Shown here in pieces: positions 9,318-9,565 of a stretch of 33,677 nt of DNA (position 1 is the first letter of the stretch; each line of letters begins with the position of its first letter). The notes beneath the pieces were generated by a model that searched no databases, was not told the origin of the DNA, and worked only from the letters and a program-made list of their open reading frames with translations. The DNA lies in contig JAGWOR010000028.1 of NCBI GenBank assembly GCA_028870845.1, forward strand, positions 1 to 33,677. The letters are read 5' to 3'. A program made the position numbers and the translations under genes. The stretch comes from Gammaproteobacteria bacterium (GTDB taxonomy: Bacteria > Pseudomonadota > Gammaproteobacteria > Natronospirales > REEB76).

Positions 9318-9394
9318 TGGTCGGGGCAGAGGGATTTGAACCCCCGACCCCCTGCTCCCAAAGCAGGTGCGCTACCAGACTGCGCTATGCCCCG
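9318..9394 (-). tRNA. tRNA-Pro (TGG)
   Basis: This is a 77-nt tRNA on the minus strand. The acceptor CGGGGCA (9388-9394) pairs with TGCCCCG (9322-9328), and CCA is encoded at 9318-9320. The anticodon arm CCTGC-TTTGGGA-GCAGG gives anticodon TGG. The gene is intact. Its 5' half (through anticodon-loop position 37) is repeated exactly 167 bp upstream. Confidence 0.97.
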
Positions 9395-9398
9395 CCGC

Positions 9399-9523
9399 AT
9401 GTAAAACCTTCGTACCACAACCACCTGCTTTGGTCGCAGTCTGTTGCCGGCTCGGCTCCCGCCTCGCCTGGCAACCCGGCCGTGCACTTCCTGTGCCCGG
9501 CGTTCGCTCCTCCCGGAGCTCAC
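9399..9523 (-). repeat. tRNA-associated GC-rich element B (upstream of tRNA-Pro)
   Basis: This 125-bp stretch lies between two exact 42-bp direct repeats of the tRNA-Pro 5' half. On the minus strand it starts GTGAGC, as element A starts GGGTGAG. It carries the core GAGGCGGGAGCCGAG (9450-9467), nearly the same as in element A. Close to tRNA-Pro it contains two segments antisense to tRNA-Pro (9422-9433 and 9435-9443). No coding potential is seen. It is probably a small non-autonomous repeat or a structured RNA. Confidence 0.6.
9422..9443 (+). repeat. Inverted, reordered fragments of tRNA-Pro inside element B
   Basis: On the plus strand 9422-9433 (CACCTGCTTTGG) and 9435-9443 (CGCAGTCTG) are exact copies of the D-arm and anticodon-arm sense sequence of tRNA-Pro. 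They are in the opposite orientation to the gene. In the minus-strand transcript they are therefore antisense to the tRNA. The 12-nt segment can pair with the stub (9524-9565) to enclose element B in a 12-bp stem. Confidence 0.65.
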
Positions 9524-9565
9524 CCCAAAGCAGGTGCGCTACCAGACTGCGCTATGCCCCGCCGC
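9524..9565 (-). pseudogene. Truncated 5' half copy of tRNA-Pro
   Basis: These 42 bases are identical to 9357-9398. They comprise 4 nt of flank, then the tRNA-Pro acceptor 5' strand, D-arm, anticodon 5' stem and loop through TTTGGG. The copy ends there and runs into GTGAGC of element B. It is the first element downstream of the tRNA operon promoter (about 48 nt from the predicted start), which suggests it occupies the original position of tRNA-Pro. Confidence 0.8.

Follow-up and report, generated by a model that had tools for sequence, protein, structure and literature searches.

A partial copy of tRNA-Pro belongs to a large family of short structured elements in gammaproteobacterial tRNA genes

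Why should an intact tRNA gene be preceded by an exact copy of its own 5′ half? The question is raised by a minus-strand operon, read by ARAGORN as tRNA-Pro(tgg), Arg(tct), His and Lys, in a Gammaproteobacteria bacterium (GenBank assembly GCA_028870845.1, contig JAGWOR010000028.1, positions 1 to 33,677; this whole stretch of 33,677 nucleotides is referred to as the window). A preliminary description had reported that positions 9524-9565 repeat 9357-9398 exactly, that the copy reaches standard position 37 of the tRNA and then runs into GTGAGC, and that one intact gene is left. Repeat search, ARAGORN and Rfam bear this out: the copies are identical at 42 of 42 positions with a spacing of 167, thus leaving 125 bp between them, the upstream copy ends one base past the anticodon before GTGAGC, and ARAGORN and Rfam find only one intact tRNA-Pro(tgg) at the locus. 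Because the match is exact over 42 bp, chance can be dismissed. Assembly error, the doubt voiced in that description, is dismissed as well, since genus mates have orthologous Pro units, and so does a genome from a second family of the order.

We refer to the partial tRNA copy as the stub, to the sequence that follows it as the insert, and to the two together as a unit (Table 1). The genus mates, too, show a TTGACT-17-TATCAT motif upstream of their Pro units. On the plus strand, positions 9119-9577 form a spurious antisense ORF with the motif GAEGFEPPTPCSQ; its peptide is the antisense reading of tRNA-Pro, which is often mis-annotated as protein.

Table 1. Positions of the tRNA genes, stubs, inserts and insert segments of the two units in the window.
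Feature	Position	Strand	Basis or remark
tRNA operon promoter, sigma70-like, TTGACT-17-TATCAT, lying upstream of the Pro stub	9620..9648	-	sequence scan
Pro stub: 4 leader bases + tRNA-Pro positions 1-38 (linear; = up to standard position 37)	9524..9565	-	42/42 identical to 9357-9398
Pro-type element, 125-nt structured insert starting GTGAGC	9399..9523	-	fold; kept in 9 genomes with covariation
Pro insert hairpin 1, GTGAGCTCC..GGAGCGAAC, with G-A/A-G pairs	9502..9523	-	fold; both sides changed in 4/7 pairs
Pro insert hairpin 2, GCCGGGCAC-AGGAA-GTGCACGGC, GGA loop	9479..9501	-	fold; multi-genome pairing test
Pro insert hairpin 3, GTTGCC..GGCAAC, with G-A/A-G pairs	9443..9475	-	fold; 99% of cells paired
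AGACTGCG, complement of D-loop CGCAGTCT of tRNA-Pro/stub	9435..9442	-	92.5% paired in 10 sequences
CCAAAGCAGGTG, complement of anticodon arm CACCTGCTTTGG of stub/tRNA	9422..9433	-	inverted repeat; multi-genome pairing test
intact tRNA-Pro(tgg)	9318..9394	-	ARAGORN, Rfam; leader copy at 9395-9398
Arg stub: leader AGAATTT + tRNA-Arg positions 1-19	9260..9285	-	25/26 identical to 9128-9153
106-nt D-loop-type insert: GTGAG-hairpin-CGAAT, GCGAGGCAGGGATGCCGAGC, GCCAGGGAGGGC	9154..9259	-	sequence; many relatives
intact tRNA-Arg(tct)	9070..9146	-	ARAGORN; leader copy at 9147-9153

The answer begins with a second unit of stub and insert, overlooked in the preliminary description, which lies before the tRNA-Arg of the same operon (9154-9285) and whose insert recurs, at 82% identity, behind a tRNA-Thr(cgt) stub elsewhere in the same genome. 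When we surveyed most tRNAs of this genome and of two genus mates, stub units were found at five tRNAs of the former (Pro tgg, Arg tct, Arg tcg, Arg cct and Thr cgt) and, in the latter, at tRNAs for Lys, Thr, Phe, Ser, Arg, Pro and Trp, some of them in tandem. Gln and other tRNAs of genus mates have further units. Only some tRNAs bear a unit, and the set differs from genome to genome. When each species was represented by a single genome, the pattern TAGCTCAGNTGGGTGAGN{30,60}CGAACG matched at least 116 loci. Among the matches listed, all informative names are gammaproteobacterial, a few reading just Proteobacteria, and they include Alcanivorax, Microbulbifer, Gilvimarinus, Marinimicrobium, Pseudohongiella, Cysteiniphilum, Thiohalobacter, a Solemya symbiont, Legionellales and Natronospirales, besides others. 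The pattern occurred in 20 of 369 gammaproteobacterial genomes of an even sample and in 2 of 398 genomes of a phylum-wide sample, both of them Gammaproteobacteria; Pseudomonadota outside that class yielded no match in the latter. These prevalences are lower bounds, since the exact pattern captures one D-loop type only. The half-copy of tRNA-Pro thus belongs to a large gammaproteobacterial family of short, structured elements located within tRNA genes. This 5′ family appears to be undescribed: no description of such units was found in the full text of open-access papers. An Rfam search of the inserts, the window and distant members matched no family.

The members share a common anatomy. A typical unit consists of tRNA positions 1-19, ending in the GG of the D-loop, followed by GTGAG, a first hairpin, CGAAC, a second hairpin, CYGG, a variable 3′ part and the intact tRNA; the element itself is non-coding, strongly structured and about 100-130 nt long. 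The insertion point lies just after GG, at G19 of the D-loop in most units and in the anticodon loop in tRNA-Pro. The four outset pairs of hairpin 1 were kept in 113, 105, 92 and 88 of 126 units, where shuffles gave at most 67, 76, 58 and 67, and CG, GC, AT and TA were all used. Structure is also evident in the Pro type, whose 125-nt insert in the window folds at -59.4 kcal/mol (z -4.9, reached by 0 of 200 shuffles). Across ten Pro sequences from nine genomes, 93.8% of cells were paired, as against 26-41% when the pairing was slid, and both sides had changed in 11 pairs, where shuffles gave 4.8.

Nearly all Pro sequences retain segments that are complementary to the D-loop and the anticodon arm of tRNA-Pro. 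As stub and insert were no more complementary than the control in 103 D-loop units, we regard the anti-tRNA segments as a speciality of the Pro type. For the same reason we rejected an EBS/IBS pairing like that of group II introns, which the swapped complementary pieces of the Pro insert had suggested. Other identities were discarded as well. A group I or group II intron does not agree with an intact tRNA whose end is duplicated, and no intron was matched at 9028-9700; nor was there any match to HEARO or IscB omega RNA at E values up to 10. A group II intron is present elsewhere in the window (26209-28605), with a reverse transcriptase/maturase-like ORF at 26303-27991 (-), just upstream of a FimV-like gene. 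The hairpins of this lineage carry GGA loops (ACAGGATGT, CAGGGATG) and csrA is present, in which they recall the CsrB/RsmZ sponges. A role as CsrA sponge, appealing as it is within the genus, is doubtful for the family at large, because loop sequences vary among its members, being ACGA or UNCG-like elsewhere; moreover, unlike CsrB/RsmZ, the units are not free sRNA genes.

How far the duplication extends could be read from the flanks. Among the matches listed, the stub agrees with the next tRNA at 16-19 of 19 positions. In 75 clean units the identity between stub side and tRNA side was 96-100% at tRNA positions 1-15, dropped to 63% at position -1 and reached background (28%) by about -13, and this sharp step means that the duplicated piece begins at, or a few bases before, the tRNA 5′ end. 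The piece varies from 16 to 42 nt and includes 0 to about 12 leader bases. Even in old copies the stub is still nearly identical to the tRNA, a point that tells against the mobile reading given below.

The preliminary description had read the repeat as an insertion into the tRNA gene that rebuilt the gene by duplicating its 5′ half. As a general account this gains support from the many tRNAs concerned and from two sites, Arg(cct) and Thr(cgt), each of which is filled in G000 and empty in G003 with flanks collinear up to the stub. For tRNA-Pro itself no clean empty site is known within the genus, as the Pro insertion predates it, and class members outside the order are without a stub there. Kinship among the inserts points in the same direction as the empty sites. 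In 32 of 46 cases (a set of cores chosen by a loose pattern, with a few false or overlapping entries) the nearest relative of an insert was found at another tRNA in another genome, as exemplified by the inserts at Thr(cgt) of G000 and Phe of G007, which are 89% identical. Since the kinship of inserts crosses tRNA sites while each stub fits its own tRNA, the insert appears to change place and the stub to be copied from the target. Copies also occur nested inside other copies, again after GG. Based on these sequence comparisons, the insert would be a mobile element, and the locus is probably best explained by small, structured, mobile elements whose insertion into a tRNA gene duplicates the end of that gene, the window holding two of them.

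Several units lie in other settings. Antisense elements are found at the 3′ ends of tRNA-Gly (L034 1153-1300, L037) and tRNA-Phe (L027), and at L026 (1501-1805) tandem elements stand beside a 5S rRNA and carry a copy of its 3′ end. At the tRNA-Gln of G001 (L018), several near-identical tandem stub units of 109 nt surround a run of N and are a likely assembly breaker. A conserved GC-rich hairpin with a T-run, perhaps an attenuator, occurs between tRNA-Ala and tRNA-Arg(cct) at L090/L111.

Units have been amplified in tandem at Gln of G001 and Arg cct of G008, which might favour a simple local tandem duplication of the 5′ region of the operon, or else an assembly artefact. We find either barely credible. 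The insert is homologous across unrelated tRNA loci and missing at empty orthologous sites, which excludes tandem duplication as the source of the first copy, and genomes assembled independently of one another share the same junction. Integration by a tyrosine recombinase, with the stub as an att half-site on the 5′ side of the tRNA, is a very unlikely alternative. The preliminary description had remarked on the unusual polarity that an integrase would need here; tRNA genes are the classic targets of these enzymes, and units downstream of tRNAs, described below, carry positions 58-76 and so resemble T-loop att blocks. Unusual polarity is nonetheless a poor explanation, as the insert is gene-less and of constant small size (106 or 125 nt leaves no room for a gene), and related inserts stand behind different tRNAs with differing acceptor strands, where both copies still agree with the tRNA at that site. 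The 5′ end of each target could not be provided by an att core that the element brings along, and we disfavour an integrase on that account. Viral contigs contained no match to the exact pattern and lend no support to a phage as vehicle.

Short, GC-rich hairpin repeats that occur nested and in tandem are also typical of REP-type repeats moved by a Y1_Tnp/RAYT transposase, and Y1_Tnp genes are present in 12 of 20 relatives. The likeness to REP/BIME extends to the inverted arrangement of copies in short structured extragenic repeats. However, REP/BIME sequences do not duplicate tRNA ends and have another terminal tag, and the family is without a RAYT link: no Y1_Tnp match was obtained in the genome of the window (88% complete), and no element adjoins the Y1_Tnp genes examined in relatives. 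To our knowledge, insertion of the REP/IS200 type does not yield target duplications of 19-42 nt, and we hold this origin to be highly improbable.

A related arrangement exists at the other end of tRNA genes. Downstream of several tRNAs we found units with a copy of positions 58-76 at their end (L053, L066, L113, L135, L150, L185, L187, L193, L203, L207, L225 and, in E. coli tyrT, L265). The first of these loci, between tRNA-Pro and tRNA-His in G017, also holds a tRNA-Arg 3′ half behind an apparent group I intron in the anticodon loop, a gene that ARAGORN misses. At E. coli tyrT the 19-nt AATCCTTCCCCCACCACCA is present in four copies besides the two tRNAs. The tyrT repeats resemble the units of the window (with their 42-nt and 26-nt stubs) in that an exact end piece of the neighbouring tRNA is joined to a structured insert, and they resemble some units of the family in lying beside an intact tRNA and being arrayed in tandem. 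They differ in duplicating the 3′ end, downstream, whereas the window units duplicate the 5′ end, upstream. The break points of the two branches, G19 and A58, adjoin in the folded tRNA. The Rfam family RF00391 (RtT) matches the tyrT repeats, does not match two other 3′ units that were tested, and, even at E 10, finds nothing in the window. In kind, the nearest known relatives are the E. coli tyrT repeats, and the units of the window a 5′ variant of that kind; the likeness of their G-A hairpins suggests that 5′ and 3′ units may share a common origin. The tyrT repeats (Bosl and Kersten 1991, as cited in PMC4986893) are reported to be expressed together with their tRNA operon.

In another reading, the unit is a functional leader or spacer RNA, similar to RtT, that is released from the tRNA precursor or controls it, with selection keeping the stub equal to the tRNA and, in the Pro unit, the anti-tRNA segments pairing with the stub or with tRNA-Pro. 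In Actinobacillus pleuropneumoniae, Northern blots are reported to have detected RNAs of the RtT family that lie next to tRNA genes (PMC4986893). The Pro unit, moreover, is kept in nine genus-level sequences and in G017, with its covariation and its anti-tRNA segments. Such retention at a single site, throughout the genus and beyond it in a second family of the same order, looks like keeping for function and counts against mobility. The Pro unit is ancient and may be a functional leader RNA. In G004, however, its stub has been destroyed by another such element, so that the unit is dispensable at least there. Furthermore, the lack of complementarity beyond control in the D-loop units and the varying set of tRNAs that bear units count against this reading, and the antisense copies at tRNA 3′ ends sit badly with a 5′ leader role. 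As an account of the family, we consider a leader RNA possible but doubtful.

Returning to mobile elements that duplicate the end of their target, we propose that the element lands just after GG, in the D-loop or, in tRNA-Pro, the anticodon loop, and that the tRNA 5′ end and leader up to this point would thereby become doubled. With that stretch present twice, the downstream tRNA is whole and a 5′ stub is left upstream. As the promoter at 9648-9620 precedes the first stub, stub and inserts should be co-transcribed with the tRNA precursor, from which the insert would be cut away during tRNA maturation. The least certain part is how the element is inserted. The duplicated piece varies in length, derives from the target and stops at the end of the mature tRNA or just beyond it (the tRNA 5′ end in the window units, the CCA end in the antisense and 3′ cases), for which reason our guess is an RNA intermediate or RNA-templated copying; staggered DNA cuts, filtered by the need for a whole tRNA, are the alternative. 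It tells against a mobile element that neither within it nor beside it did we find a transposase, a reverse transcriptase or any other partner gene.

Taken further, the guess leads to a bacterial family akin to retro-elements, a small structured RNA spreading between tRNA genes through an RNA/cDNA intermediate, with the tyrT repeats as its 3′ branch. In such a scheme the RNA would join the GG of the D-loop (or the T-loop) and copying would proceed to the mature tRNA end; the copy would be inserted beside the gene, which allows the tRNA to survive, and the result would be an analogue of SINE-like elements. Eukaryotic retroelements and SINEs that target tRNA genes (e.g. the Dictyostelium TRE) use these genes as landing sites and combine a target duplication of variable length with a structured RNA. 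Either they lie next to the tRNA gene and not in it, or their tRNA head is a fixed one, whereas in the present family the head is copied from each target. We regard this extended scheme as speculative and unlikely to hold in full.

These elements bear on how tRNA genes are used as targets. Such genes are supposed to be struck by mobile DNA mainly at the 3′ end, whereas this family would enter the D-loop or anticodon loop and rebuild the gene by copying its 5′ end. Class-wide, it would place structured RNA in the leaders of many tRNA operons. It would also provide a wider family for the long-unexplained repeats of E. coli tyrT and account for many of the tRNA-derived stubs in genomes. Finally, it raises the testable question of how a gene-less element of 100 nt may move and whether its RNA acts on tRNA maturation.
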